This document shows positions 49,244 to 63,688 of a stretch of 64,000 nt of DNA, one piece after another. The translations under genes and the position numbers were made by a program. Source of the stretch: Sandaracinobacteroides hominis (lineage in GTDB: Bacteria; Pseudomonadota; Alphaproteobacteria; Sphingomonadales; Sphingomonadaceae); contig NZ_JADCUC010000003.1 in the NCBI RefSeq assembly GCF_016464365.1, positions 372,001 through 436,000 of the forward strand, in the 5' to 3' direction. The first letter of the stretch is position 1, and each line of letters opens with the position of its first letter. The notes under the pieces are model-generated. The model did not search any database. It was given only the letters and a program-made list of their open reading frames with translations, and was not told where the DNA came from.

Positions 49244-50257
49244 TCAGCGCTTGCCGAAAGCCTGTGCGCGACGAACGGCATCGGCGCGGATATCCGCCCA
49301 GAACAGGCCGAAATCATGATAGTGCAGGCTGCCGCCCGGAAGCGGCTTCAGCGCAAGCGCTGCGTCTGGCGCGACGACCAGAAAACCGCGGTCGCACTTG
49401 GCCGCGACTGCGCCCGCAACCAGCGCTTGCAGCGGACCTGCGCCGGGATCGCCGGGGATGGCGCCCAACGCCTCGCCACGCGGCGTTTCCGGGCGTGCAG
49501 CTTCGAAGCTGACGGGGTTCATGCATAGCGTCTGCTTGCCCGGCACGTCGCCGTATTTGGCGACAAATCCGGCCTGCGAGCGGGTGGCGCCGGCATCGAG
49601 ATCGGTTTCCGGCAGCACGGCGTTCCATTGCAGCACGCAGCCTGTGTCGGTGCGGGTGGCACAGGGTTTCAGCGACTTGTACGTGCGGCCGAAATCGCCC
49701 TCGGCAAGATTGAAGCCGATGGCATAGGCGGCGACCAGCCGCTTTTGCAGCGGGGTGCCGTCGATGCGCTTTTCCAGCAGAGTTGCCACGTGCAGCCCGC
49801 CCTGGCTGTGCCCGGCGAGGAGGAAGGGGCGCCCCTTGGTATGCGTCAGAAACACATCGAAGGCGCGTTCGATATCGGAATAGGCCAGCGCATAAGCGGC
49901 GTCGCGCTGCTCCGGCGTGCCGCGCAGCGCCGGGATGGACGCCTGCCGATAGCGCGGCGCGAACACCCGGCAGCAGCCGGTGAAGGCGCTGGCCTGCCGG
50001 GCGATGCTGCTGGCATCCGCCCACTGGTTTGCCGTGGCGTCCGACACGTCCTGGTTGAGCTCGGTCTCGCCGCGATAGGTGGTGGGGTGGATGAAGAACA
50101 CGTCCACCTTCGGCTTCTTTGCGGCAGGGGTGGCGCCGGCCGGCAACGCAGATGCGGCCTGCGACCAATTGGCGGCGCTGGCATAGTCCGGCGCAGGCGG
50201 CTCGGCCAGAGCCGGGGCCGCCCGCAGCAATCCGAATGTCAGCGCGATCTTCCGCAT
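49244..50257 (-). CDS. DUF3089 alpha/beta hydrolase, exported
   Basis: 337-residue secreted hydrolase: signal MRKIALTFGLLRAAPALA (1-18). VDVFFIHPTTYRGETELNQD is the DUF3089 opening, the nucleophile elbow is PFLLAGHSQGGLHVATLLEK (Ser about 155), and the C-terminus has PGGSLHYHDFGLFWADIRAD (probable catalytic His). GGAGG precedes ATG 50257. Substrate unknown. Confidence 0.85.
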   Translation of the reverse strand: MRKIALTFGLLRAAPALAEPPAPDYASAANWSQAASALPAGATPAAKKPKVDVFFIHPTTYRGETELNQDVSDATANQWADASSIARQASAFTGCCRVFAPRYRQASIPALRGTPEQRDAAYALAYSDIERAFDVFLTHTKGRPFLLAGHSQGGLHVATLLEKRIDGTPLQKRLVAAYAIGFNLAEGDFGRTYKSLKPCATRTDTGCVLQWNAVLPETDLDAGATRSQAGFVAKYGDVPGKQTLCMNPVSFEAARPETPRGEALGAIPGDPGAGPLQALVAGAVAAKCDRGFLVVAPDAALALKPLPGGSLHYHDFGLFWADIRADAVRRAQAFGKR

Positions 50258-50902: not shown

Positions 50903-50976
50903 CGGCTGAAAGATTTTGCAGGCTCCGCGGGCGTTCGGTTGCGCAGGGCAGCCCTGCACCGAAGCATGCGTTGACT

Positions 50977-50993
50977 TTGCAATTCACTTGCAA
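50977..50993. promoter_or_regulatory. Candidate iron-responsive operator over a TTGACT promoter
   Basis: TTGCAATTCACTTGCAA consists of two self-complementary TTGCAA halves separated by five bases, so the 17-mer is an inverted repeat. It fills the spacer after a TTGACT -35-like hexamer at 50971-50976, 32 bases before the receptor ATG. A related motif occurs in front of the PepSY operon (58013-58029). Fur- or Mur/Irr-type control is inferred. Confidence 0.6.
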
Positions 50994-51024
50994 TAGCCCC
51001 CGACCAATTCAAAGGGGATTGCTA

Positions 51025-53340
51025 ATGCAAGTGACTGACAAAAGCGCAACTATACCTGCCTTCCTGGCGATGGGTTGCATCGGCTTCATCGCATCTGCCC
51101 AGCCGGCGTTGGCGCAAGAGGCGAAGCAGCCGGAAACATTGGGCCGCGTGGTTGTCACCGACACCGAGATCGAAGCCGAAAGCTATCGCACGGAAGCAGC
51201 TCCCTCGCGTGCTTTCACCGAGCCGCTGCTGGATACACCGCGCTCCGTCACCATCGTCAATGGCGACCTGATGCGCCGCACCGGTGTCACCAGTCTGTCG
51301 GAAGCGCTTCGGCTTGTTCCAGGCATCACCCTGGGCGCCGGCGAAGGCGGCAACCCGCAGGGCGACCGTCCCTTCATCCGCGGCTTCGACGCGCAGGGCA
51401 GCACCTTCATCGACGGCATCCGCAGCGTCGGCGGCCAGTCGCGGGAAATCTTCGCGATCGAGCAGGTCGAAGTCACCAAGGGCAGCGATTCCTCGTTCGC
51501 TGGCCGTGGCAGCGCCGGCGGCAGCATCAATCTGATCTCCAAGCGCGCACATCCAGGCACCGACGCCCGGGTTGAAGGAACGCTCGGCAACGACAGTTAC
51601 AAGCGCCTGACGGCCGACCTGAACTACCAGATCGGCGACATGGCTGCCATCCGCGTGAACGGCATGTGGCACGATCAGGATGTCTCCGGCCGCGATGCCA
51701 TGTCGTACAGCCGCTGGGGCATTGCCCCCACAGTCAGCTATGGCCTGGGCACGCCCACCGAAATGTCGCTGGGCTGGTATCACCTGGAAAGCGACGACCT
51801 GCCGGATCCCGGCATCCCGTTCGAGCGCACGCAGGCGCAGGCAGTGGCTTCGGGCAACAAGGCCATCGGCCCGGCGCTGAACGTAAACGGGCAGGATGTG
51901 CCGCGTGGGGTCTTTTATGGCCTCGCCGACCGCGACTTCCGCATCACCAATGTCGATGAATTCCACATCCGCTTCTCGCACGAGATCAGCGACAACGTCC
52001 GCGCCGAGTTCAACGCAAAATATTCCAATGTTGCGCAATCCTATATCATCTCCCAGCCAGACGACAGCCAGGGCAATGTGCAGAAGGGGCTGGTCTGGCG
52101 CCGCGTCAACAGCCGCTGGGCCGACGTCGACGCCTTCGTGCTGCAGCAGGGCTTCACCGGCACCTTCGACACCGGCTCGATCTCGCACAGCTTCTCGGCG
52201 GGCGGCGAGTGGAGCGCGGAAACCTCGAAGCGCGGCAGCTATGTGAGCAAGACCGGCAATGTGGCGATCAACACCTCGCCGCGCTGCACGCCCGAGGGCA
52301 TCGCCCTCTATAACTGCACCAGCCTGTTCACGCCCAACCCTTATGATCCATGGGTGAACCTCATCAACAATGTGCCGACAGACATCGTGCAGAGCCCGAT
52401 CACCGGCGACAACCGGGCAGAAACCTGGTCGCTCTATGCATTTGATACGATCAGCTTCACCGACAAGTTGCTGCTGAACCTGGGCGGCCGCTACGACAAT
52501 TATCGACAGCGGGCGATCACCCGTTCGGCCATCACCGGGCTGGCTACCGCCGACCTCGACTATCGTGACAGCTTCTTCAGCTATCAGGTCGGTTTCGTGT
52601 TCAAGCCGACAGAGAACGGCAGCATCTATATCTCGACGGGATCGTCGGTGACGCCGCCGGGCAGCTTCGTGGGCGAGGGTTCGGAAGGAAACGCAATCGG
52701 CGTTTCGCCGGTGATCACGCTCGACGACCTGAAGCCGGAGACGACCAAATCCTATGAGCTGGGCACGAAATGGGATCTGGTCGGCGGCGCGCTGTCGCTG
52801 ACGGGCGCGATCTTCCAGACGGAGACCAAGAATGCGCGGACCACGAACGCCAACGGCCTGCTGGAATATGTCGGCCAGAGGCGGGTGCGCGGCTTCGAGC
52901 TGAGCGCCACCGGGCGTCCGGTGGAATTCTGGAACCTCTATGCCGGCTATTCCTATATGGACAGCGAAGTGGTGGCGCTGGGCGACAACCCGACGGCGGC
53001 GCAGATCGCGACGCTGGGCAAGCCGTTCCCCAACACGCCGAAGAACAGCTTCACGGCACAGACGGACTTCACCTTTGCCGAGCGCTTCAACATCGGCGGA
53101 GGCGCAATCTATAACGACAAGCAATATGGCAGCTTCGGCATCGGTGGCGTCTCGCGCTATGCCCCGTCCTACTGGCGGTTCGACCTCAATGGCTCGGCGC
53201 AGATCACCGAAAATATCGATCTGCGGGTGAATGTGCAGAACCTGTTCGACAAGCGCTATTTCGACCGCACCTACACCACGCACTTTGTCAATCAGGCTCC
53301 CGGCCGGTTGGCGACGGCTACGCTGGCCGTGCACTTCTAG
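51025..53340 (+). CDS. TonB-dependent catecholate siderophore receptor, Fiu/CfrA-like
   Basis: 771-residue outer-membrane receptor. Signal peptide about 1-31 (ending PALAQE), TonB box near TLGRVVVTDTEIE, plug with TPRSVTIVNGDLMRRTGVTS, RGFDAQGSTFIDGIRSVGGQ and IEQVEVTKGSDSSFAGRGSA, barrel ending ATLAVHF. The DTPRSV plug opening is typical of Fiu-type ferric-catecholate receptors. AAAGGGG precedes ATG 51025. Adjacent tonB and piuC-type genes fit iron uptake, and a strong terminator follows. Confidence 0.93.
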   Translation: MQVTDKSATIPAFLAMGCIGFIASAQPALAQEAKQPETLGRVVVTDTEIEAESYRTEAAPSRAFTEPLLDTPRSVTIVNGDLMRRTGVTSLSEALRLVPGITLGAGEGGNPQGDRPFIRGFDAQGSTFIDGIRSVGGQSREIFAIEQVEVTKGSDSSFAGRGSAGGSINLISKRAHPGTDARVEGTLGNDSYKRLTADLNYQIGDMAAIRVNGMWHDQDVSGRDAMSYSRWGIAPTVSYGLGTPTEMSLGWYHLESDDLPDPGIPFERTQAQAVASGNKAIGPALNVNGQDVPRGVFYGLADRDFRITNVDEFHIRFSHEISDNVRAEFNAKYSNVAQSYIISQPDDSQGNVQKGLVWRRVNSRWADVDAFVLQQGFTGTFDTGSISHSFSAGGEWSAETSKRGSYVSKTGNVAINTSPRCTPEGIALYNCTSLFTPNPYDPWVNLINNVPTDIVQSPITGDNRAETWSLYAFDTISFTDKLLLNLGGRYDNYRQRAITRSAITGLATADLDYRDSFFSYQVGFVFKPTENGSIYISTGSSVTPPGSFVGEGSEGNAIGVSPVITLDDLKPETTKSYELGTKWDLVGGALSLTGAIFQTETKNARTTNANGLLEYVGQRRVRGFELSATGRPVEFWNLYAGYSYMDSEVVALGDNPTAAQIATLGKPFPNTPKNSFTAQTDFTFAERFNIGGGAIYNDKQYGSFGIGGVSRYAPSYWRFDLNGSAQITENIDLRVNVQNLFDKRYFDRTYTTHFVNQAPGRLATATLAVHF

Positions 53341-53364
53341 CCTTCTACAAACGAACTTCGTCAG

Positions 53365-53396
53365 CCCCGGCCGCGCCTGGCGCGGCCGGGGTTTTT
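53365..53396 (+). terminator. Rho-independent terminator after the siderophore receptor
   Basis: CCCCGGCCGCG (53365-53375), loop CCTGG, CGCGGCCGGGG (53381-53391), then TTTTT. A perfect 11-bp GC stem with a T-tract: the strongest terminator in the window. It separates the receptor from tonB, so tonB must have its own promoter or depend on read-through. Confidence 0.93.
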
Positions 53397-53464
53397 CGTT
53401 CCGGTGATCGAATGCGCGGCTGCCAAGCCGCCATCTGCAATTGCCTCTCAATACGGAGACAGCT

Positions 53465-53509
53465 ATGGCCCTGCGAAGGATTGGATACAGGTGGCGACTC
53501 AGGCGATAA
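53465..53509 (+). other. Possible 14-codon upstream ORF overlapping the tonB start
   Basis: ATG at 53465 has GGAG six bases upstream and encodes [14 protein letters not shown] then TAA. It ends 19 bases inside the presumed tonB frame start (GTG 53491), in a different frame. It has the better ribosome site of the two, so it may couple or limit tonB translation; it could also be chance. Confidence 0.35.
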
Positions 53510-54225
53510 ACAGTTTTGCGCTTGCCGGTGAACGGGCTGTTGCCCGGCGCTTGCCCGAACCCGTGTCTGCGCCTGCCGAAACCACTCCGCGCGAGCTGCG
53601 CTTTTCGTCCAAAATCTGGGCTGCCATCCTCGTGGCCTGTATGCACGCCGCCGTCCTGCTCGCCCTGCTGACCTATCGGCATGTCGTGAACGTCGAAAAG
53701 CCGCCCGAGGCGCTGGTGCTTCTGGATATTGCGGCTCCCCGCCCGCCCGAGCAGCAGGCACCGCCCGAAATCCCCGACATTGCGCCGGTCGTCATTCCGC
53801 CGCCGGTGGTCGAGATCGAGAACCGGCCGCCCTCCATCACCGCCGTGGTGATGGAAACTCCCCCGCCGCCCGCCCCGGTGGCGCCGGTCGTGAAGGCCGA
53901 AAGCCCGCCGGCGCCGCCTGCCGCGCCCGCACCTGCCGTCGCCGCGGATCTTTCCTCGTCTATGATCGAGGCGGCTCCCCCGCGCTACCCGCTGGAATCA
54001 CGCCGGCTGAAGGAACAGGGCACCGTCGTGCTGGAGCTGCTGCTGGGGCTGGATGGCCGAGTGGAGCGGATCCTGGTGCGCACAAGCAGCGGTTCGAATC
54101 GGCTGGACCAGGCGGCGCTGAACGCCGTGCGCAAATGGCGCTGGTCGCCGACCGTGCGCAACGGCACGCCGGTTGCCGTACGCGGCCTGGTCGAGATCCC
54201 CTTCGTTCTTGCCCCCCACCACTGA
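53491..54225 (+). CDS. tonB: TonB energy transducer
   Basis: Inner-membrane protein transmitting proton-motive force to outer-membrane receptors, about 244 residues. TM helix at about 42-61 ([20 protein letters not shown]), a Pro-rich periplasmic spacer (about 90-155; [20 protein letters not shown]), and a C-terminal TonB domain: [54 protein letters not shown]. The start is uncertain: GTG 53491 is preferred; a GTG at 53404 sits only eight bases past the terminator. Located between a siderophore receptor and piuC. Confidence 0.88.
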
Positions 54226-54238
54226 TGCTTCCCCGCTC

Positions 54239-54922
54239 ATGCTGATCGCCATACCAGACGTGCTGTCCGCCGACGAGGTTCGCCATTTCCGTGCGGCGAT
54301 GGCGACGGCCGAATGGGTGGATGGCAACATCACCTCTGGCCCGCAATCTGCGCTGGCGAAGGTCAACCTGCAGCTGCCCGAGGATGGCCCGGCCGCGCGC
54401 GAGCTGTCGCAGCGGGTGCTGGCAGCGCTGGGACGGACGCCGACGTTCATAGCGGCGGCGCTGCCCGCCAAGGTGTTTCCGCCGCTGTTCAACCGCTACC
54501 GGGTGGGCGAGACGTTCGGGACACATGTGGACAATGCGATCCGTATGCAGGCTGGGACGGAGTTCCGTATCCGCACCGATCTGTCGGCAACGCTCTTCCT
54601 CTCCGACCCGGATGAATATGACGGCGGCGAACTGACTATCGAGGGCGAGTTCGGCGAGAAGCAGGTAAAGCTGCCGGCCGGGCACATGATCCTCTATCCC
54701 GCCTCCAGCCTGCACCGGGTGACGCCGGTCACGCGCGGCGAGCGACTGGCGAGCTTCATGTGGATACAGTCGATGGTGCGCGACGATCGCGCGCGGCGAT
54801 CGCTCTACGAACTGGACGTCTCGATCCAGAAGCTGGCCGGCCGGCTCGGGCTCGGCGACCCGGAGGTCGTCTCACTGACCGGCATCTACCACAATCTGCT
54901 GCGCCGCTGGGCCGACGCCTAA
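54239..54922 (+). CDS. PiuC-type Fe(II)/2-oxoglutarate-dependent (PKHD) hydroxylase
   Basis: Cytoplasmic Fe(II)-dependent dioxygenase of the PKHD/YbiX family, 227 residues. The iron ligands lie in [12 protein letters not shown] (HxD) and in [17 protein letters not shown] (distal His and the 2-oxoglutarate Arg). C-terminal [20 protein letters not shown] matches PiuC. In many Proteobacteria it lies beside Fiu-like receptors and TonB under iron control. It starts 13 bases after tonB, and its stop overlaps the converging apbE stop by four bases. Confidence 0.9.
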
Positions 54923-55881
54923 AGCATTTCGAGCAGCGCCGGGGTCAGGATTTCGCGGAAGCGTTGCCCTTCGCGGATAAGAATCTGCGCAGCGAGGTTC
55001 CGGCCGGTCGCCCAGCGCAGCCCCTCCTCCGCGCCGAGCACGGTGATGGCGGTGGCTTCGCCATCGGCGAGCATGCAGGATTTGCCCAGCACGGCGACCG
55101 AGGCGATGCCTTCCGGGATGGGCTCGCCCGTGTGCGGATCGATGCTGTGCGAAAGTCGGCGGCCGTCCCGGTGAAAGGCGCGACGATAGTCGCCAGACGT
55201 TGCAATGCTGAAACCGGACAGCGCGGTGCGAAGCGGGCGCAGGGCAGCGCCCGGCGGCTGCTCGATCTCCACCCACCAGGGCTGGCCGTCCGGCCGGACG
55301 CCTTCTCCGCGATATTCACCGCCGATGCCGATCAGAAATTGCCGGATGCCGGATGCCAGCAGCGCTTCAGCGGCGCGGTCGACCGCCTGTCCCTTGGCGA
55401 TGCCGTTGAGATCGAGCCAGACGCCACCCGGTTGGGTGAGGGCGCCGTCGACCAGCTCAAGCGACGCAGCGGCAGCAGGCGGCGGGCTGGCCTGAGCGCC
55501 ATCCGGGCCGAAGCCCCAATGCGCAGACAGCCTGCCGATGCACGGGTCAAAGGCACCGCCGCTTTCCGCGGCAAGTTGCAGCGCGCAGCCGATGACGGCA
55601 TCGAAGCCGGGCGACAATGCAATCCGCTCGCCTGCCTTGGCCCGGTTGAAGCGGGAGATTTCGGAATCCGACTCCCAAAGGCTGGATTCGGCGATGACCT
55701 CGGCCAGCACGGCTTCGACCAGAGGGCGGACTTCCGCACCGCCACCAACCAGCGACAACGACCATTCCGTGCCCATCGTCGCGCCGCCCATCCGCCGCAC
55801 CTGCGCGCCCTTCGCCACGCCTGCGAACAGGTCTGGCGAAAGGTCGCGCGGGATGGCGACGCGCGGCTCCCAAGACGTCAC
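54919..55881 (-). CDS. apbE: FAD:protein FMN transferase (ApbE)
   Basis: Attaches FMN from FAD covalently to Thr/Ser of a target protein. 320 residues, GTG start. Motifs: [72 protein letters not shown], and [16 protein letters not shown] with the metal-site region [13 protein letters not shown]. No signal peptide is visible, although most characterised ApbE act in the periplasm. Downstream partner DUF2271 has a target motif. Last gene of the PepSY-DUF2271-DUF4198-apbE unit. Confidence 0.92.
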
Positions 55882-55978
55882 GGGAACCGCCTCAACCGGG
55901 CGTCAACCCGCAAGGCCGACCGGCCGCCCGCGCAAGTGCGCGGAGCCCGGCGGAACCCGGCGCCGAAGGCCAACGAAA

Positions 55979-56791
55979 TCAGGGGGCGAGCACTTCCAGC
56001 GTCGTGATGTAGACCAGCCTGCGCTGCGTCGCGCCTGGAACCGTCGTGTTCTTGTCCTGCAGCTGGGCTTCCATCCAATACATGCCCGGCGTCGGGAAAT
56101 CGACGGTCAGCACCCCGTTGGCGTCGGTGTTCAGCGTGCGGTCGTTCGGCTTGTCGCGATAACGCACGCCGCCCGGCACGACTTCTACCTCGATGCCGGC
56201 GGCGGGCTTTCCGTCGGCAAGGAAGCGCAGCTTTGCCGCTTCACCTGACACCAGATCATTCGGGTGCGTCAGCCACTCCACCTCCAGCCCTTTGCCCATG
56301 GGCTTCAGCACGGTGGTGGTCGGCGCGCCGGCGGTCACGAAAATCTCGTTGCGGCTGCTGTTCTCGCTGATCTGCACGTCGGTCGCGTCAGCGGGGATCA
56401 GTTTGGCGAGATCGGCGGCTGCTGCCCCGCGCGGCAGGCGCTTCTGCTCGCCGCCCTGCTTGTAGCTGCCCATGATGCCCTGATTGGAAGTGCCGATCTT
56501 CCAGGTGCCCTGCGCGTCCAGCTGCACGTCGAAGACGCTGCGATAGCGGCCGGTGGAGCCGTTCTGCAGCTTGCCTTCGGTGCCGTCGGGCCGCCACACC
56601 TTCACATTGTCCAGCCGCATCGGCATGTGATCGAAATAGAAGAGATCGTTGGAAACGGCGGCATCCACCGTCACCCAGGCCTTCTCACCGGAAACGACGG
56701 TCGTCGACGGATGCAGCCACTGGCGGTGCGCCAGCGACGGCGCGGCGGCAAGGCCGGCGAGGAGCGCGGCGATGGCGATTTTGCGGAACAT
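55979..56791 (-). CDS. DUF4198 periplasmic protein
   Basis: 270-residue exported protein of the DUF4198 family (related to NikK-type metal-binding periplasmic proteins). Signal peptide MFRKIAIAALLAGLAAAPSL followed by A and a predicted cleavage leaving HRQWLHPSTTVVSGEKAWVT, so the mature N-terminus would begin with His. Two beta-sandwich regions: DHMPMRLDNVKVWRPDGTEG, and the C-terminal Ig-like GMYWMEAQLQDKN. Its position between DUF2271 and apbE implies a role in iron handling or electron transfer. Confidence 0.87.
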   Translation of the reverse strand: MFRKIAIAALLAGLAAAPSLAHRQWLHPSTTVVSGEKAWVTVDAAVSNDLFYFDHMPMRLDNVKVWRPDGTEGKLQNGSTGRYRSVFDVQLDAQGTWKIGTSNQGIMGSYKQGGEQKRLPRGAAAADLAKLIPADATDVQISENSSRNEIFVTAGAPTTTVLKPMGKGLEVEWLTHPNDLVSGEAAKLRFLADGKPAAGIEVEVVPGGVRYRDKPNDRTLNTDANGVLTVDFPTPGMYWMEAQLQDKNTTVPGATQRRLVYITTLEVLAP

Positions 56792-56805
56792 CGATATTCT
56801 CCCTG

Positions 56806-57318
56806 TTACTTTTTCAGCGTGGCGGTGACGGCGCCCAGCTCGGCAGTGCCGGCGGCCTTCACCACCTCTCCGCCCTTGGGCGGCCACTGGAACGGCAGGC
56901 GGACAAGCTCGCGCCCGCCGACTTCGCGGGCGGCCTCGACCACCAGCTCATATTTGCCGGGCGCCAGGCGGCCGAGCGCGCCCTGCCCTTCCGTAAAGCT
57001 GACCTTCTGAGTGCCGGGAGCCTTGGTGGCACCCGAAACGCCATCGACGGGAAAGCTCAGCGTGCGGCCGGATTTCCGCCACCAGGTGCGGATATCGCGC
57101 AGCCACTTCTCGCCTTCCTTGTCCTTCAGCTTGGTGTCGTACCAGACCGCCAGCGTCTTCGCCTCGCCGCCGGCGGGCTCGATCCAGATCGCCACATAGG
57201 GGCGGTGATATTCCGCCACCTTCAGCGTCGGGATGGTGAGCGAGACATCGATGCCCGCCGCCAGTGCCGGGGCAGCGGAAAGCAGCAGGACAGGAGCGGC
57301 AAGGAGGTCTTTGCGCAT
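56806..57318 (-). CDS. DUF2271 periplasmic protein with an ApbE flavinylation motif
   Basis: 170-residue exported protein: signal MRKDLLAAPVLLLSAAPALA (1-20). The DUF2271 core is YHRPYVAIWIEPAGGEAKTL, AVWYDTKLKDKEGEKWLRDI, RTWWRKSGRTLSFPVDGVSG. Residues 92-98, DGVSGAT, match the ApbE target motif (D-x-x-S/T-G-A-T/S), so Thr98 is the predicted covalent FMN site. With PepSY upstream and apbE downstream it is likely a periplasmic flavoprotein electron carrier. Confidence 0.9.
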   Translation of the reverse strand: MRKDLLAAPVLLLSAAPALAAGIDVSLTIPTLKVAEYHRPYVAIWIEPAGGEAKTLAVWYDTKLKDKEGEKWLRDIRTWWRKSGRTLSFPVDGVSGATKAPGTQKVSFTEGQGALGRLAPGKYELVVEAAREVGGRELVRLPFQWPPKGGEVVKAAGTAELGAVTATLKK

Positions 57319-57326
57319 GGAAATCC

Positions 57327-57983
57327 CTAGTGAATGAAGAAGATGGCGAGGATGACGGGGATCAGCAGCCCCAGCCCGACCAGCGGCCAGGTGGACGGCC
57401 GGCGATGCGAATGCAGCCACAGCAGCACCAGCCCGGTGATGGCAAACACCAGCGAGGCAAAGGCGAAGATGTCGATGAACCAGCTCCAGGCGGTGCCGGT
57501 GTTACGGCCCTTGTGCAGGTCGTTCAGATAGGAAATCGCCCCGCGTGAGCTGCTTTCCGCGAGCACTTCGCCGGTGGCGCGATCGATGGAGACCCAGCCG
57601 TCCCCACCGGGCCGCGGCAGCGCCAGATAAATTTCATCGGCCGACCATTCCGCCGTCGCGCGAGGCTCCATCGAGAGCTCGCCGGCGATCCACTTCGACA
57701 GCTCGGTCGGCAGCGGCCGTTCCTGCTTCTCATCGGTTTCCGCCGGGCCGGGCTGCACCAGCTTCAACAGCGACGGTGGCAATTGCGCCTCGCGCTCGAT
57801 GGTGACTGGCTTCCCCTCGATCTGGCCGGCATGATTCAGCGTGAAGCCGGTGACGGTGAACAGCAGCAGCCCGACAAGGCTGACAGCCGAGCTGATCCAG
57901 TGCCAGCTGTGCAGCTGCTTCAGCCAGAAGGCGCGCTTCGCCTTTTGCGTCTGCTTTGCGGGAGGGGCAGCGGTGCCGTGCAT
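57327..57983 (-). CDS. PepSY-associated transmembrane protein
   Basis: 218-residue inner-membrane protein of the PepSY-TM/PiuB-related group. TM1 WHWISSAVSLVGLLLFTVTG (about 28-47), PepSY-like periplasmic segment GGDGWVSIDRATGEVLAESS, TM2 IDIFAFASLVFAITGLVLLW (about 168-188), TM3 WPLVGLGLLIPVILAIFFIH. Conserved His (LHSWHW, LNH, NDLHKG, LHSH) lie at the membrane edges and could bind haem b. First gene of the unit and likely route of electrons across the membrane to DUF2271. Confidence 0.88.
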   Translation of the reverse strand: MHGTAAPPAKQTQKAKRAFWLKQLHSWHWISSAVSLVGLLLFTVTGFTLNHAGQIEGKPVTIEREAQLPPSLLKLVQPGPAETDEKQERPLPTELSKWIAGELSMEPRATAEWSADEIYLALPRPGGDGWVSIDRATGEVLAESSSRGAISYLNDLHKGRNTGTAWSWFIDIFAFASLVFAITGLVLLWLHSHRRPSTWPLVGLGLLIPVILAIFFIH

Positions 57984-58009: not shown

Positions 58010-58029
58010 CGAATGCAACTCATTCGCAA
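58010..58029. promoter_or_regulatory. Candidate iron-responsive operator upstream of the PepSY operon
   Basis: CGAATG-CAACT-CATTCG is a perfect inverted repeat at 58010-58026. On the minus strand 58029-58013 reads TTGCGAATGAGTTGCAT, sharing TTGC-N-A-N-TGA-N-TTGCA with the motif before the siderophore receptor (58013-58029 versus 50977-50993). It is 27 bases upstream of the PepSY ATG. Confidence 0.55.
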
Positions 58030-58155
58030 CAATGAAAAGGGCATTTGCCATCTGCGACATCTCTTCACCCCATCTGTGCGGCCGATCAACCAGACAAGGC
58101 GCGGCATTCGATGCGACGATGAAGCAAATCCACATCCTGAAGCCGGCGCAAGTCA

Positions 58156-58243: not shown

Positions 58244-59038
58244 ATGCATGCTGAAACCGATGATCCGCGCGAACGGATTCGCCATTTGCTCCGGCTTGCC
58301 GGTGCCGTGCCCTTGCGCGAGCGGTCAGCCGGCGCCGGGTTCGGACATGCCGGTATCGATGCGGCATCGGGCGCGCTGGAGCGGGGGCAGCTGCACGAGC
58401 TGTTCCCGGCAAGCGCCGACGATCCGGCGGGCGCGGCGGGTTTTGCCGCCATGCTGTGCCGGCGGCTGGGCGGAACCTGCGTCTGGCTGCGGGAGGCGAA
58501 GGCGGAGCGGCAGTTGCAGCTGTTCGGGCCGGGGCTTTCGGGCATCGGTCTCGATCCGGAAAATCTGCTGCTGGGCGTTCTCCCCGATGCCGATGCCGTG
58601 CTGCGCGCGGGGGCCGATGTCCTGCGCTGCCCCGACGTGGGCGTGGCGGTGATCGAGCTGTGGCGCAATCCCCGCAACCTTGGCCTCACCGCCACGCGCC
58701 GCTTCCAGCTGGCGGCGGAAGCCTCCGGCGTTACGGCGTTGCTGCTGCGCATGGAGGCCGAGCCCAGTGCCAGCGCGGCTGCCACGCGCTGGTCGGTACG
58801 CTCCATTGCCTCGCGGGCGCTGGAGGGCAATGCGCCGGGGCGCCCGGCCTTCGAGCTGGAGCTGCTGAAGCATCGCGGTGGCGGGCGGGGGAGCTGGCGG
58901 CTGGAGTGGGATCGTGACTCCGCCTCCTTCCGCGACCTCCAACACACCCATGACCACGCGGCGCTTCCTGGCGCTGTGGTTTCCGTTCCTGCCGACCGAG
59001 CGGTGGCGGATGTCGTGCCATTCCGGAAAGCCGGATGA
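58244..59038 (+). CDS. imuA: ImuA, SOS mutasome component
   Basis: RecA/SulA-like mutagenesis factor of the ImuA-ImuB-DnaE2 translesion system, 264 residues. Landmarks: ASGALERGQLHELFPASADD, GAAGFAAMLCRRLGGTCVWL, LLLGVLPDADAVLRAGADVL, GVAVIELWRNPRNLGLTATR, then RRFQLAAEASGVTALLLRME and GRPAFELELLKHRGGGRGSW. The ATG at 58244 is almost leaderless, immediately after the LexA box, with no ribosome site. Overlaps imuB by 89 bases. Confidence 0.92.
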   Translation: MHAETDDPRERIRHLLRLAGAVPLRERSAGAGFGHAGIDAASGALERGQLHELFPASADDPAGAAGFAAMLCRRLGGTCVWLREAKAERQLQLFGPGLSGIGLDPENLLLGVLPDADAVLRAGADVLRCPDVGVAVIELWRNPRNLGLTATRRFQLAAEASGVTALLLRMEAEPSASAAATRWSVRSIASRALEGNAPGRPAFELELLKHRGGGRGSWRLEWDRDSASFRDLQHTHDHAALPGAVVSVPADRAVADVVPFRKAG

Positions 59039-60470
59039 GCCACTTGTGCTGGTGGCGACCGAGCGCAATGCCCGGCGGCTGACGGCGGCCTGCCCGCAGG
59101 CGCTGAAACTGGGCCTGGCGGCGGGGATGACCCTGGCCGACGCGCTGGCCCGCGTGCCGGACCTTTGCGTGGAGGAGGCAGATCCGGCGGCCGACGCGCG
59201 GCTGTTGCTGCATCTCTCTGACCTTGCCCTGCGCTGGTCGCCCATCGTCCAGCCCGATCCGCCCGATGGGTTGCTGATCGACATAGCCGGCTGCACGCAT
59301 CTGTTTGGCAGCGAAGCGGCCCTTGCCGCCGATGCAGTGGCGTTGCTGGGCCGGAATCTGGCCGTGCGCCACGCCTTTGCCTCCACGCCGTCGGCCGCCC
59401 ATGCGCTGGCGCGTTTTCCGGTGCAGGCCTCCTGCGAGATGCAGGCGATCCGCCGGTTACCGGTGGCGGCGCTGAGGCTCCCCGTCGAGGCGGAGACGGC
59501 GCTGCGCCGGGCCGGGCTGAAGCATGTGGGCGATCTGGCGGACAGGCCGACGATGCCCTTGTCGGCGCGTTTCGGAAAGCAGGCGACCCATGCGCTGGAC
59601 AGGCTTCTGGGGCGCGCCGACAGCCGGCTTTCGCCGCGAAGGCCTTTGCCGGCGCTGCACTTCGCCCGGCGCTTTGCCGAGCCGATCGCCCATGTCGACA
59701 GCGTACTGGGCGCCGTGGACGGGCTGGCGGCAAAGGCGTCACGCGTGCTGGAGCAGCGCCATCAGGGCGGGCGCAGCTTTGCCATCCGGCTGTATCGCAG
59801 CGACGGAGAGCTGCGCGACCTGACCATCGAAACCGGCCGGCCGACGCGCGATCCGGCATTGCTGGCGCGGCTGCTGCGGGAACGGGTGGAGGCTCTGGCC
59901 GATCCGCTGGACCCGGGCTTCGGCTTTGACCTCATCCGCTTTGCCGTGCCGGCCACGGAGCCGCTGGGACTATTGCAGGCCGATCTGGAGGCGCGGGGCC
60001 GGCAGGGGGAGGCGCTGTCCGCGCTGGTCGACCGGCTGAGCGTGCGGCACGGGCGCGAGCGCATCCGCCGCCTGCTGCCGGTGGAAAGCCATGTGCCGGA
60101 ACGCGCGGTGCGGTCGGTGCCGGCGCTGGGCGAGGCGCGGGCGGAATGGCCGCCTCCGCCCACTGGCGAGCCGCCGCTGCGCCCGATCTGCCTGTTCGAT
60201 CCGCCGCAGCCGATCATCGTGATGGCCGAGGTGCCTGATGCGCCGCCGCGCCGCTTCATCTGGCGCGGTGTGAACCATATTGTCGTCCGCGCTGAAGGGC
60301 CCGAGCGGATCGCCGCGCCCTGGTGGCAGAAGGCAAGCGAGGGGCGGCCGACACGAGATTACTACCGGGTGGAGGACGAGGCCGGGCGCCGCTTCTGGCT
60401 GTTCCGCCGGGGGCTGACCGGGCGCGAGGCAGCGCATCCGAGCTGGTACCTGCACGGCCTGTTCGCATGA
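58950..60470 (+). CDS. imuB: ImuB, Y-family polymerase-like SOS protein
   Basis: Catalytically inactive Y-family polymerase relative that scaffolds the mutasome through the beta clamp; 506 residues. It starts MTTRRFLALWFPFLPTERWR; palm segment GLLIDIAGCTHLFGSEAALA, then RFGKQATHALDRLLGRADSR. The C-terminal region contains LRPICLFDPPQPIIVM and RDYYRVEDEAGRRFWLFRRG, typical of ImuB. Overlaps imuA by 89 bases and dnaE2 by ATGA, so all three are translated from one mRNA. Confidence 0.94.
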   Translation: MTTRRFLALWFPFLPTERWRMSCHSGKPDEPLVLVATERNARRLTAACPQALKLGLAAGMTLADALARVPDLCVEEADPAADARLLLHLSDLALRWSPIVQPDPPDGLLIDIAGCTHLFGSEAALAADAVALLGRNLAVRHAFASTPSAAHALARFPVQASCEMQAIRRLPVAALRLPVEAETALRRAGLKHVGDLADRPTMPLSARFGKQATHALDRLLGRADSRLSPRRPLPALHFARRFAEPIAHVDSVLGAVDGLAAKASRVLEQRHQGGRSFAIRLYRSDGELRDLTIETGRPTRDPALLARLLRERVEALADPLDPGFGFDLIRFAVPATEPLGLLQADLEARGRQGEALSALVDRLSVRHGRERIRRLLPVESHVPERAVRSVPALGEARAEWPPPPTGEPPLRPICLFDPPQPIIVMAEVPDAPPRRFIWRGVNHIVVRAEGPERIAAPWWQKASEGRPTRDYYRVEDEAGRRFWLFRRGLTGREAAHPSWYLHGLFA

Positions 60471-63400
60471 GCGGATTTGCCGAGCTGGCGGCTGCCAGCA
60501 ACTACAGTTTCCTGCGCGGCGCCAGCCACCCGCACGAGATGGTCGCCGAGGCGCTGGCGTTGGGGATGGCCGGCATCGGCATCGCCGATCGGAACACGGT
60601 GGCGGGCGTTGTGCGGGCACATGTGGCGCTGCGGCAGGCAACCGACAAGGCTGTGGCGGCCGGGCTCAACTTGCCCCCCTTCCGGCTGGTGGTGGGGGCG
60701 CGGCTGGTGTTTGCCGACGGCACGCCGGAAATCGTCGCCTATCCCACGGATCGGATGGCCTGGGGGCGGCTGACCCGTCTGCTGTCGCTGGGCAACCGCC
60801 GCACGAAAAAAGGCGCGTGCGAACTGCATCTCGACGATCTGCTGGCGCATGGCGAAGGGTTGCTGCTGATCGCCTTTGCCCGGCAAGCGGATGCGGAGGC
60901 ACTGCGGCTGCTTCGGGAAGCGTTCCCCCGTCATCTGTGGCTCGCCGCCACCATGCCCCGCAAGGGAGACGACCAGCGCCAACTGGAGCGGTTGCGGCGA
61001 TTGGGGCGCGACCTGTTCATCCCGCTCATCGCCACCAACGACGCGCTCTATGCCGTGCCCCAAGACCGCCCGCTGCACGACGTGCTCAGCTGCATCCGCG
61101 AGAAGGTGACGATCCACACGGCCGGGCGGCGGCTGGAAGCGAATGCGGAGCGGCATCTGAAATCGCCCGCCGAAATGGCGCGGCTGTTCGAAAGCTGCCC
61201 CGAGGCGGTGGCGGAGAGCCTCAACCTCCTCGCCCGCATCCGCTTCTCGCTGGATCAGCTGAGCTATGAATATCCGCACGAGCCGGTGCCCGACGGCTGG
61301 GAGCCGCTGGGCTGGCTGAAGCACCTCGTGCTGCAGGCGGCACACGATCGCTATGGCGCCGAACTGCCACCCGGCGTGGTGAAACGGCTCGACGAGGAAT
61401 TCGACCTGATCGAGCGGCGAAACTACGCCTGCTATTTCCTGACCGTGCACGATCTCGTGCTGTTCGCCCGTGCACAGGAGCCGCCGATCCTCTGCCAGGG
61501 GCGCGGGTCTGCGGCCAATTCCATCGTCTGCTTCCTGCTGGGCGTGACGTCGGTCGATCCGGAAAAACACGATCTGCTGTTTTCCCGCTTCGTCTCCGAC
61601 GATCGCGCCGAGCCGCCCGACATCGATGTCGATTTCGAACACGAGCGGCGCGAAGAGGTGATGCAATATGTCTATCGCCGCTATGGCCGCGAGCGGGCGG
61701 GGATTGCGGCCACCGTCATCCATTATCGCCCGCGCAGCGCCGTGCGCGACGTGGGCAAGGTGCTGGGGCTGTCCGAGGATGTGACGAGCCGGCTTTCCTC
61801 GACCGTCTGGGGCAGCTTCTCCAGCGAGATGGAGGAAGAGCGCTATCGGGAGGCGGGCGTCGACCCGGCCAACCCCGAAATCGCCCGGCTGGCGATGCTG
61901 GTGAACCGGCTGCTGCACTTTCCGCGGCACCTCTCGCAGCATGTCGGCGGCTTCGTGCTGACCGAGGACCGGCTGGACGAGACGGTGCCGATCCACAATG
62001 CGGCAATGGAAGACCGCACCTTCATCGAGTGGGACAAGGACGATATCGATGCGCTGAACCTGATGAAAGTGGATGTGCTGGCGCTGGGGATGCTGACCTG
62101 CATCCGCAAATCCTTCGAGCTGATGCGCCAACACGGCCTTGGCGATCACGACCTGGAGCTGGACGGCACCACCGAGGACACGGCCGTCTATGACATGCTC
62201 TGCACGGGCGACAGCATCGGCTTGTTTCAGGTGGAAAGCCGGGCGCAGATCAACATGCTGCCACGGCTGAAGCCGCGCACGATCTATGATCTGACGATCC
62301 AGGTGGCGATCGTCCGCCCCGGCCCGATCGAGGGGGATATGGTGCACCCCTATCTCAGACGACGGAGCGGGCTGGAGAAGGTGGCGTATCCGTCCCCCGG
62401 CCCGCCGCACGATCCGGACGAGTTGAAGGGTCTTCTGGGCAAGACCTTCGGCGTCCCGCTGTTTCAGGAACAGGCGATGAAGCTCGCCATCGTCGCCGCC
62501 GGCTTCACCCCCGGCGAGGCGAACCAGCTGCGCAAGGCCATGGCCACTTTCCGCAACGTCGGCACCATTCACGAGTTCGAAGCGAAGATGATCGAAGGCA
62601 TGGCGGCTCGCGGCTATGAGCGGGCGTTCGCGCAGCGTTGCTATGACCAGATCAAGGGCTTCGGCAGCTATGGCTTTCCCGAAAGCCATGCGCTTGCCTT
62701 TGCGAAGCTCGTCTATGTCTCTGCCTGGATCAAATGCCACCAGCCGGCGGTCTTTGCCTGCGCCCTGCTGAACAGCCAGCCGATGGGCTTTTACGCCCCG
62801 GCGCAGATCGTCCGCGATGCGCGCGAGCATGGGGTGGAGGTGCGCCACATGGACGTGAATGCGAGCGACTGGGACAACAGCCTGGAGCGCGATGCCAAAG
62901 GCGCCCCGGCGCTGCGGCTGGGCCTCTGCCAGATCGATGGCTTTCGCGAGGAATGGGCCCTGAAGCTGCAGGCGGCCCGCGCAGGAGGCGGTTTTTCAGG
63001 GGTTGAGGAGCTGGCCCGCCGCGCCCGTCTGCCGGCGCGGGCGCTGCAGCTATTGGCGGATGCGGACGCCTTCCAGTCGCTCGCCATGCCGCGCCGCGAA
63101 GCCCTGTGGCAGACGCGCCGGACGCCTGCCGGGGAGCTGCCGCTGTTCGCCGCCGCCTGCGCCCGTGAACTGGGCGAGGAAGCCGACATGGCGCTGCCCG
63201 CCATGCCCGAAAGCGAGGAAGTGGTGACGGATTACCAGACCATCCGCCTGTCGCTGCGGCAGCATCCGATGCAGTTCCTGCGTGGCGAGCTGCGGGCGCG
63301 GGGCATATCTTCCAGTGCGGAGGCTGCCGCCGCGAAGCCCGGCCGCCGCGTGCAGGTGGCGGGCGTGGTGCTGATCCGCCAGCGCCCCGGCAAGGGCAAC

Positions 63401-63688
63401 GCCATCTTCGTGACGCTGGAGGACGAGACGGGCGTCACCAACCTCCTAATCTGGGCGCGCCTGTTCGAACGCATGCGCCGCCCGGTGATGTCGGCCCGGC
63501 TGATGCTGGCCGAAGGCATCCTGCAGCGCAGCGTGGAGGGCGTGGTCCACCTGATGACCGATCGGGTGGAGGATCTGACGCCGATGCTGGGGCTGCTGGA
63601 GGAATCGCAGGCCGAGCCGCGCCCGCCGGAACGCGCCCGCCACCCGCGAAATGTGCGCGTGCTGCCAAACTCGCGCGACTTTCATTAG
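60467..63688 (+). CDS. dnaE2: Error-prone DNA polymerase DnaE2 (ImuC)
   Basis: C-family translesion polymerase, 1073 residues, the usual size. Domains: PHP (AELAAASNYSFLRGASHPHE, about 1-220), palm with catalytic Asp pair in PPDIDVDFEHERREEVMQYV (about 385) and the third Asp in NLMKVDVLALGMLT (about 535), helix-hairpin-helix and OB fold (RVQVAGVVLIRQRPGKGNAI, about 960). The C-terminal peptide lacks a canonical clamp motif, consistent with ImuB supplying clamp contact. Starts at ATG 60467 within the imuB stop. Confidence 0.97.
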   Translation: MSGFAELAAASNYSFLRGASHPHEMVAEALALGMAGIGIADRNTVAGVVRAHVALRQATDKAVAAGLNLPPFRLVVGARLVFADGTPEIVAYPTDRMAWGRLTRLLSLGNRRTKKGACELHLDDLLAHGEGLLLIAFARQADAEALRLLREAFPRHLWLAATMPRKGDDQRQLERLRRLGRDLFIPLIATNDALYAVPQDRPLHDVLSCIREKVTIHTAGRRLEANAERHLKSPAEMARLFESCPEAVAESLNLLARIRFSLDQLSYEYPHEPVPDGWEPLGWLKHLVLQAAHDRYGAELPPGVVKRLDEEFDLIERRNYACYFLTVHDLVLFARAQEPPILCQGRGSAANSIVCFLLGVTSVDPEKHDLLFSRFVSDDRAEPPDIDVDFEHERREEVMQYVYRRYGRERAGIAATVIHYRPRSAVRDVGKVLGLSEDVTSRLSSTVWGSFSSEMEEERYREAGVDPANPEIARLAMLVNRLLHFPRHLSQHVGGFVLTEDRLDETVPIHNAAMEDRTFIEWDKDDIDALNLMKVDVLALGMLTCIRKSFELMRQHGLGDHDLELDGTTEDTAVYDMLCTGDSIGLFQVESRAQINMLPRLKPRTIYDLTIQVAIVRPGPIEGDMVHPYLRRRSGLEKVAYPSPGPPHDPDELKGLLGKTFGVPLFQEQAMKLAIVAAGFTPGEANQLRKAMATFRNVGTIHEFEAKMIEGMAARGYERAFAQRCYDQIKGFGSYGFPESHALAFAKLVYVSAWIKCHQPAVFACALLNSQPMGFYAPAQIVRDAREHGVEVRHMDVNASDWDNSLERDAKGAPALRLGLCQIDGFREEWALKLQAARAGGGFSGVEELARRARLPARALQLLADADAFQSLAMPRREALWQTRRTPAGELPLFAAACARELGEEADMALPAMPESEEVVTDYQTIRLSLRQHPMQFLRGELRARGISSSAEAAAAKPGRRVQVAGVVLIRQRPGKGNAIFVTLEDETGVTNLLIWARLFERMRRPVMSARLMLAEGILQRSVEGVVHLMTDRVEDLTPMLGLLEESQAEPRPPERARHPRNVRVLPNSRDFH

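Follow-up and report, generated by a model that had tools for sequence, protein, structure and literature searches.

PepSY-like flavinylation gene clusters were surveyed by Meheust et al. 2021 (PMC8238504), who counted 3220 of them, 2833 with DUF2271 and 1500 with DUF4198, and proposed that PepSY-like systems reduce iron, siderophore iron included. The same work showed that the cognate ApbE of Amantichitinum ursilacus flavinylates its DUF2271 partner on the predicted threonine, a modification lost in a Thr-to-Ala mutant; DUF2271 has since been modelled as a distinct fold of its own (PMC11334425). A related cluster in Caulobacter crescentus, CCNA_03155-03159, is iron- and Fur-regulated (PMC3751524), and its insertion mutants are less fit in ethylenediaminetetraacetic acid (EDTA), as are mutants in the receptor CciT and the PiuC homologue CciO (PMC12004947). 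Here we analyze a four-gene locus of this kind, encoding PepSY, DUF2271, DUF4198 and ApbE proteins, in Sandaracinobacteroides hominis (GCF_016464365.1, NZ_JADCUC010000003.1, positions 372,001-436,000; this whole stretch of 64,000 nucleotides is referred to as the window, and all coordinates are window positions). The module belongs to a known kind, already published in outline. What appears to be new is the topology of its two central proteins, an exported DUF2271 encoded beside an ApbE without a recognizable export signal; the tie of this copy to iron, through matches to the Fur box, is new evidence as well.

The four genes are co-oriented on the minus strand between 54919 and 57983 and are transcribed in the order given below. 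Gaps of 8 nucleotides (PepSY-DUF2271), 14 nucleotides (DUF2271-DUF4198) and 97 nucleotides (DUF4198-ApbE) make a single operon likely.

57327-57983, minus strand: PepSY_TM_like_2 membrane protein (PF16357, 260.5 bits; PF03929, 56.9 bits) with three predicted transmembrane helices
56806-57318, minus strand: secreted DUF2271 with a Sec-type signal peptide, predicted carrier of flavin mononucleotide (FMN) (PF10029, 161.5 bits)
57025-57045, minus strand: DGVSGAT flavinylation motif, residues 92-98 of DUF2271, predicted acceptor Thr98
55979-56791, minus strand: secreted DUF4198 with a putative divalent-metal site (PF10670, 192.1 bits)
54919-55881, minus strand: ApbE, flavin adenine dinucleotide (FAD):protein FMN transferase, with no signal peptide or lipobox (PF02424, 229 bits; 5mgy, E 5e-54)

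An earlier interpretation made from the letters of this DNA (the sequence-only reading) had placed the four co-oriented genes here, and their Pfam matches are indeed well above the cut-offs. Its span stopped short of the convergent receptor/TonB/dioxygenase genes (51025-54922) and of a putative Fur box (58012-58030), and while it identified the ApbE gene correctly it overlooked the absence of a signal peptide. Its remark that the module had no characterized function is outdated, given the flavinylation reported in PMC8238504 and the Fur control (PMC3751524) and EDTA fitness (PMC12004947) reported for Caulobacter.

In common with the PepSY-like systems of PMC8238504, the window has a single cluster, in an iron context, of PepSY, a DUF2271 with [ST]GA[ST], a secreted DUF4198 and ApbE. 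A protein matching both PF03929 and PF16357 is present, DUF2271 carries [ST]GA[ST] within DGVSGAT, and of the proteins among which those systems have at least one with a signal or lipidation (ApbE, FMN-bind, DUF3570 or DUF2271) it is DUF2271, and not ApbE, that has one here. A leaderless operon ApbE is not mentioned in the part of PMC8238504 available to us; compared with the systems as described there, the window lacks a cytosolic reductase gene and has the convergent operon in addition. The Caulobacter cluster shares all four genes and has a fifth, encoding a flavoprotein, which the window cluster lacks. Its receptor and PiuC homologue fall in the same phenotype class but are encoded at the distant CCNA_00027/28, whereas in the window such a pair forms the adjoining operon.

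A survey for PF10029 found the family in 27 of 118 relatives, a group that counts the source genome itself, and above cut-off in 65 of 398 genomes across the phylum, some of them shared between samples. For the first set 100 neighborhoods were fetched (90 strong and 10 weak PF10029 matches); the 10 weak ones had no DUF2271-profile match and were dropped, which left 91 loci including the window. For the second set the top 80 were taken out of at least 579 relatives from named genomes, which biases it to close kin; one of its loci (L263) duplicates a locus of the first. PepSY, DUF4198 and ApbE are found in 71, 73 and 70 of the 91 loci, respectively, and the full order PepSY-DUF2271-DUF4198-ApbE in 49; in the second set 56 of the 80 loci show the full order and 61 contain ApbE.

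The window ApbE begins at a GTG codon with a Shine-Dalgarno-like GAGG upstream, and even its stop-to-stop frame is only 327 amino acids long. The open frame leaves 39 residues ahead of the conserved G-x-TMGT, with no hydrophobic run. Our own detector of hydropathy, lipobox and RR found neither signal peptide nor lipobox in this protein, which is not of the exported-lipoprotein type by this measure. The enzyme core is well preserved: K163, D168, S229, G230, A272 and D273 are present in 70 of 70 homologues and T277 in 69 of 70. A signal peptide hidden in another frame before ApbE was considered; none was seen on reading the window, and the ApbEs of the relatives likewise have none.

The same hydropathy detector was applied to all proteins, at a main threshold of 1.7. 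It called a signal in only five of 63 (first set) and five of 61 (second set) ApbEs that are linked to DUF2271 and not fused to it, as compared with 47 of 55 unlinked ApbEs (after two truncated sequences were dropped; the remaining eight had no call) and all seven ApbE-DUF2271 fusions. DUF2271 itself was called in 81/84 and 57/79 cases (one truncated sequence dropped from the second set) and DUF4198 in 73/73 and 78/80; the DUF2271 figure for the second set indicates that the detector misses weak signals. At a threshold of 1.9, 43 of 57 unlinked and 5 of 63 linked ApbEs were called (Fisher p 6.5e-15, which is not a clean probability because the loci are related). The unlinked ApbEs comprise 17 returned loci and 40 picked from tables rather than every unlinked row, with 13 duplicates of linked loci removed. 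Twenty of them (L182-L201) belong to the same order or family as the window, and 13 of these were called at 1.9, so the contrast is not just one with distant taxa.

Among the five linked calls of the first set the lipobox of L076 alone is convincing; an R-V-L-[IV]-P segment accounts for L060 and L061, and other stretches of weak hydrophobicity for L050 and L098. The R-V-L-I-P-like segment also lies behind the borderline calls L259 and L264. By our pattern it occurs at the ApbE N-terminus in 29 of 51 PepSY-linked loci, in none of the 12 linked loci without PepSY and in none of the seven fusions. An extra set of 70 rows, 13 of them duplicates of linked loci, has it in 4. When 127 ApbEs were placed in a tree, the linked proteins that are not fused formed clades of 51 (support 0.894, with L076 nested inside) and 12 members (support 1.0), and the fused ones a clade of seven (1.0). 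A hand tally by genome gave three signal calls, all borderline, for 48 genomes whose sole ApbE is linked and unfused, and 13 of 13 for the genomes with no linked ApbE and one elsewhere. An exported DUF2271 beside a signal-less ApbE is thus, as predicted from sequence, a recurrent topology across the family. In the literature searched, which included passages of PMC8238504, PMC11334425 and PMC12052999, we found no earlier report of it.

Is DUF2271 the substrate of this ApbE? Numbered from the ATG at 57318 (the mechanical open reading frame starts at 57420), the window protein carries DGVSGAT at residues 92-98, exactly where the sequence-only reading had put it. The motif fits the published D-x-x-[S/T]-G-A-[S/T], of which seven residues are enough for flavinylation (PMC12052999). 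DUF2271 is the sole match among the seven neighboring proteins, and the pattern arises in 176 of 200,000 shuffles of its sequence. The structure model has a mean predicted local distance difference test (pLDDT) score of 82.1, and at E 0.01 PF10029 is the only Pfam match, with no match to FMN_bind (PF04205), the substrate type of NqrC/RnfG. Covalent FMN on the window DUF2271 is predicted, and the claim that this protein is an ApbE substrate gains support from the A. ursilacus protein of PMC8238504.

Conservation of the motif, which the sequence-only reading had set as a check, held for the acceptor Thr/Ser (91 of 91 loci) and in part for strict [ST]GA[ST], scored with the Asp not counted (53 of 91). 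The strict form is found in 42 of 63 ApbE-linked DUF2271s, in 11 of the 21 that lack a linked ApbE and in none of the 7 fused ones, which does not match the expectation that the motif would be kept only close to apbE; 15 of the ApbE-linked proteins have an [ST]GPT variant. ApbE is present in 27 of 27 DUF2271-positive relatives and 26 of 91 negative ones (Fisher p 3e-12), and phylum-wide in 60 of 60 other DUF2271 genomes, a group that includes all 20 genomes behind the 21 loci without a linked ApbE. In the seven fusions (L049, L051, L054, L055, L056, L105 and L107) the acceptor motif is altered to TRPT (two), SRPT (two), AKPS, ARET or SGPT, as if the fused DUF2271 served as a docking domain and not as an acceptor domain.

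The S. hominis genome encodes a single ApbE and a single DUF2271. A genome search for three further substrate families, FMN_bind, DUF3570 and NQR2/RnfD, found none; this search did not extend to the Flavodoxin_4 and FMN_red candidates put forward in PMC11334425. With a leaderless sole ApbE, and DUF2271 as the sole substrate family of the four searched, either DUF2271 is flavinylated by a signal-less enzyme or it is not flavinylated. The second alternative, in which ApbE serves some other cytosolic protein and DUF2271 stays unmodified in these bacteria, we consider improbable. It has a precedent in Klebsiella pneumoniae, where an ApbE also without a signal peptide flavinylates a fumarate reductase (PMC12052999) that is soluble and cytoplasmic, unlike the Sec-exported apparent substrate of the window, and variants of Flavodoxin_4 and FMN_red have been proposed as substrates too (PMC11334425). 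Against it stand the absence of the other families searched from the genome, the adjacency and co-occurrence of DUF2271 and ApbE, and the acceptor residue kept in all 91 loci.

If DUF2271 is flavinylated in these bacteria, a leaderless enzyme and an exported target suggest that attachment of the cofactor precedes export. Flavinylation of the DUF2271 precursor ahead of Sec is chemically plausible: short peptide tags can be labelled by ApbE, and truncated forms of the enzyme are active when expressed in the cytosol (PMC12052999). We tentatively propose, as a real possibility, that in the alpha- and betaproteobacterial PepSY/DUF2271 operons sampled a cytosolic ApbE adds FMN to an unfolded or chaperone-held DUF2271 precursor, and that the FMN-bearing chain then passes through Sec. 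The same chemistry would take place outside in lineages whose exported lipoprotein ApbE is encoded elsewhere or that have a signal-bearing ApbE-DUF2271 fusion. Two reports weigh against modification before export: in a knock-out strain the exported ApbE could not be substituted by one expressed in the cytosol (PMC12052999), and the cognate A. ursilacus apbE was cloned as "signal peptide-truncated" (PMC8238504), so the ApbE of that operon (WP_053936888.1) may carry a signal and be a counterexample. They would fit periplasmic flavinylation by an ApbE that gets there without a recognizable signal, or whose true start was missed. Exported ApbEs, lipoproteins for the most part, are described as the enzymes that modify secreted targets (PMC12052999), the linked L076 has its lipobox, and weak signals escape our detector. 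We nevertheless regard this alternative as rather unlikely, as it is opposed by the short N-terminal stretch and ribosome-binding-like GAGG of the window gene and by the same lack of a signal in 58/63 and 56/61 linked unfused ApbEs. If modification before export is correct, loading the cofactor ahead of Sec would remove the need for periplasmic FAD, a widespread subfamily of ApbEs that stay inside would constitute another route of flavinylation, and Sec could carry a chain with attached FMN. The proposal is directly testable in Caulobacter, whose operon already shows iron phenotypes; the ApbE of the related Caulobacter segnis (L243) is leaderless.

Two related ideas were dropped. Export by the twin-arginine (Tat) pathway was considered because it would permit a folded, cytosolically flavinylated DUF2271 to cross the membrane; the window signal peptide has a Sec-type pattern with no Tat motif, and RR occurs in 3 of 91 rows, solely as MRR at the start, with three more rows lacking a signal call. 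DUF2271 signals are less hydrophobic than those of DUF4198 in leaderless-linked loci (n=48, p 3e-9), and they differ between leaderless-linked loci and loci without a linked ApbE (n=15; p 0.0014), but family medians (7 vs 8 families) give p 0.12, and weak hydrophobicity was not counted as support for slow post-translational export.

Iron control was examined with a matrix from a palindrome search, run unsupervised on the regions that precede 69 PepSY genes, the window's region included. The search gave AATGCGAATCATTCGCATT, which we take to be a Fur box. Sites above 10 bits are present in 61 of the 69 regions, and the log-likelihood is 476.6, compared with 24.3 for one shuffled set. The top two sites in the whole 64 kb precede the PepSY operon and the convergent operon, respectively; the former belonged to the training set of the matrix and the latter did not. 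Twenty single-base shuffles of the window gave a mean of 0.15 sites of at least 15 bits against two in the real sequence, the best shuffled site scoring 19.0.

58012-58030, no strand assigned: putative Fur box preceding the PepSY operon (23.1 bits, top site of the window)
50976-50994, no strand assigned: putative Fur box preceding the receptor/TonB/dioxygenase operon (20.1 bits, second site)
51025-53340, plus strand: TonB-dependent siderophore receptor, Fiu-like (TIGR01783, 251.5 bits, cut-off 223.5)
53404-54225, plus strand: TonB energy transducer (PF03544, 76.2 bits)
54239-54922, plus strand: PiuC/YbiX-type Fe(II) dioxygenase, PKHD hydroxylase (NF003973 "Fe2+-dependent dioxygenase", 373.7 bits, cut-off 336)

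The dioxygenase and ApbE genes converge, and their stop codons overlap at 54919-54922. The receptor scores 415 bits against the Fiu equivalog model (cut-off 686) and is not Fiu proper; likewise, the dioxygenase, with 270.1 bits against NF003972 (cut-off 399), is not E. coli YbiX proper. By NF003973 it belongs to the PiuC/YbiX type; the name PiuC is used in PMC12004947. The Fur boxes, siderophore receptor, TonB and dioxygenase support the ferric-siderophore context named by the sequence-only reading, and their linkage to the flavinylation operon unites the two Caulobacter EDTA-fitness loci in one pathway.

We consider it probable that the locus is a Fur-controlled iron-assimilation operon making an iron-linked, flavinylated periplasmic ferric (siderophore) reductase, a judgment separate from that on flavinylation before export. 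For the electron path, the substrate, the role of the dioxygenase, the metal of DUF4198 and the site of flavinylation we infer the following scheme. Electrons from the cytosolic or quinol side would cross PepSY by way of two histidine-ligated haems and, in the periplasm, be passed to FMN held covalently on Thr98 of the secreted DUF2271; ApbE would install this FMN, most likely in the cytosol before DUF2271 transits Sec, because this ApbE lacks an export signal and is the only one in the genome. Reduced DUF2271-FMN would then reduce ferric chelates imported by the adjacent Fiu-like receptor and TonB, the dioxygenase would modify the emptied or loaded siderophore, ferrous iron would enter through FeoB, which is encoded in the genome, and the N-terminal histidine of the secreted DUF4198 would bind a divalent metal.

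Several points weigh against this scheme. Linkage to the receptor and dioxygenase is frequent and not universal (a PiuC-type homologue lies inside the fetched stretch in 29/91 loci of the first set and 19/80 of the second), and just 53 of 91 DUF2271s carry the strict motif. A diflavin reductase is missing from the window operon and had no match in the genome, in a search without a positive control, and the literature covered contains no direct demonstration of reductase activity for any DUF2271. PepSY proteins have been proposed as siderophore permeases (PMC7190382), and the solved relatives of DUF4198 bind nickel, zinc, cobalt or copper and not, as demonstrated, iron.

The role of PepSY as an electron conduit, also part of the sequence-only reading, is supported by histidines near the membrane edges, His28, His51, His157, His191 and His218, which are conserved in 71, 66, 71, 50 and 60 of 71 homologues, respectively, and would ligate haem. 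FoxB and HiuB, siderophore reductases described in PMC13001220, share the PepSY domain, the (proposed) histidine-ligated haems and the TonB-receptor context; the part of that source available to us mentions no flavinylated partner for them. Consistent with delivery of electrons to PepSY, 47 of 91 loci contain a homologue of a flavodoxin/nicotinamide adenine dinucleotide (NAD)-binding reductase. The permease role, put forward for Alteromonas proteins, would make PepSY the inner-membrane siderophore carrier with the flavin merely assisting. This appears very unlikely here: the Alteromonas PepSY proteins have 4 to 8 helices (PMC7190382), whereas the window protein has three together with the conserved histidines, and at other loci reductase domains are found adjacent or as fusions. 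The 12-locus clade of leaderless ApbEs (L059, L108-L114, L117-L119 and L121) adjoins DUF2271s with TGAS/SGAS motifs, and in L108, the member checked, PepSY, flavodoxin and NAD reductase form one polypeptide.

DUF4198 is a putative histidine-brace metal protein: its predicted mature N-terminus is His22, directly after the A|H cleavage site, and its fold resembles those of metal-binding IsDUF4198 (9gcb) and Zcp (9mhi-9mhn), at an identity of 14-16%. The Ideonella protein 9gcb, which also has an N-terminal histidine after signal cleavage, binds nickel with a dissociation constant of 18 nM (PMC12537917), and the Zcp entries hold zinc, copper or cobalt according to their titles. Mature residue 18 is a Trp in the window protein and a His ligand in 9gcb (matched by number, not by residue alignment); the window protein conserves His34 and His155 of the mature chain instead. 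On this evidence the module might serve nickel, zinc, copper or cobalt in place of iron, and DUF4198 would then be the protein that carries the metal. The Fur boxes and siderophore-receptor neighbors speak against such a role, as does the response of the Caulobacter (PMC3751524) and Alteromonas (PMC7190382) versions to iron limitation, and we think it decidedly unlikely. The metals of the solved relatives also leave the earlier proposal that DUF4198 handles released iron unproven; that proposal and the lack of a characterized function are the parts of the sequence-only reading that were not supported in that form, while its substrate, conduit and ferric-siderophore context were.

A literature search for Zcp found no paper. 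The entries 9mhi-9mhn give the molecule name as phosphoribosylglycinamide formyltransferase under titles naming Zcp with zinc, copper or cobalt, possibly an inherited misannotation. In three loci (L204, L205 and L206) DUF4198 has a Gly/Pro/Ala-rich insertion near the C-terminus, which is absent from the window copy.

Directly upstream of the PepSY operon and running the opposite way, 58244-63688 apparently holds a mutasome cassette, whose genes we take to be ImuA, ImuB and DnaE2: the first product has no Pfam match, the second has an IMS domain and the third is of the DNA polymerase III alpha type. A DUF3089 protein (210.6 bits; 49244-50242, minus strand) precedes the TonB receptor.

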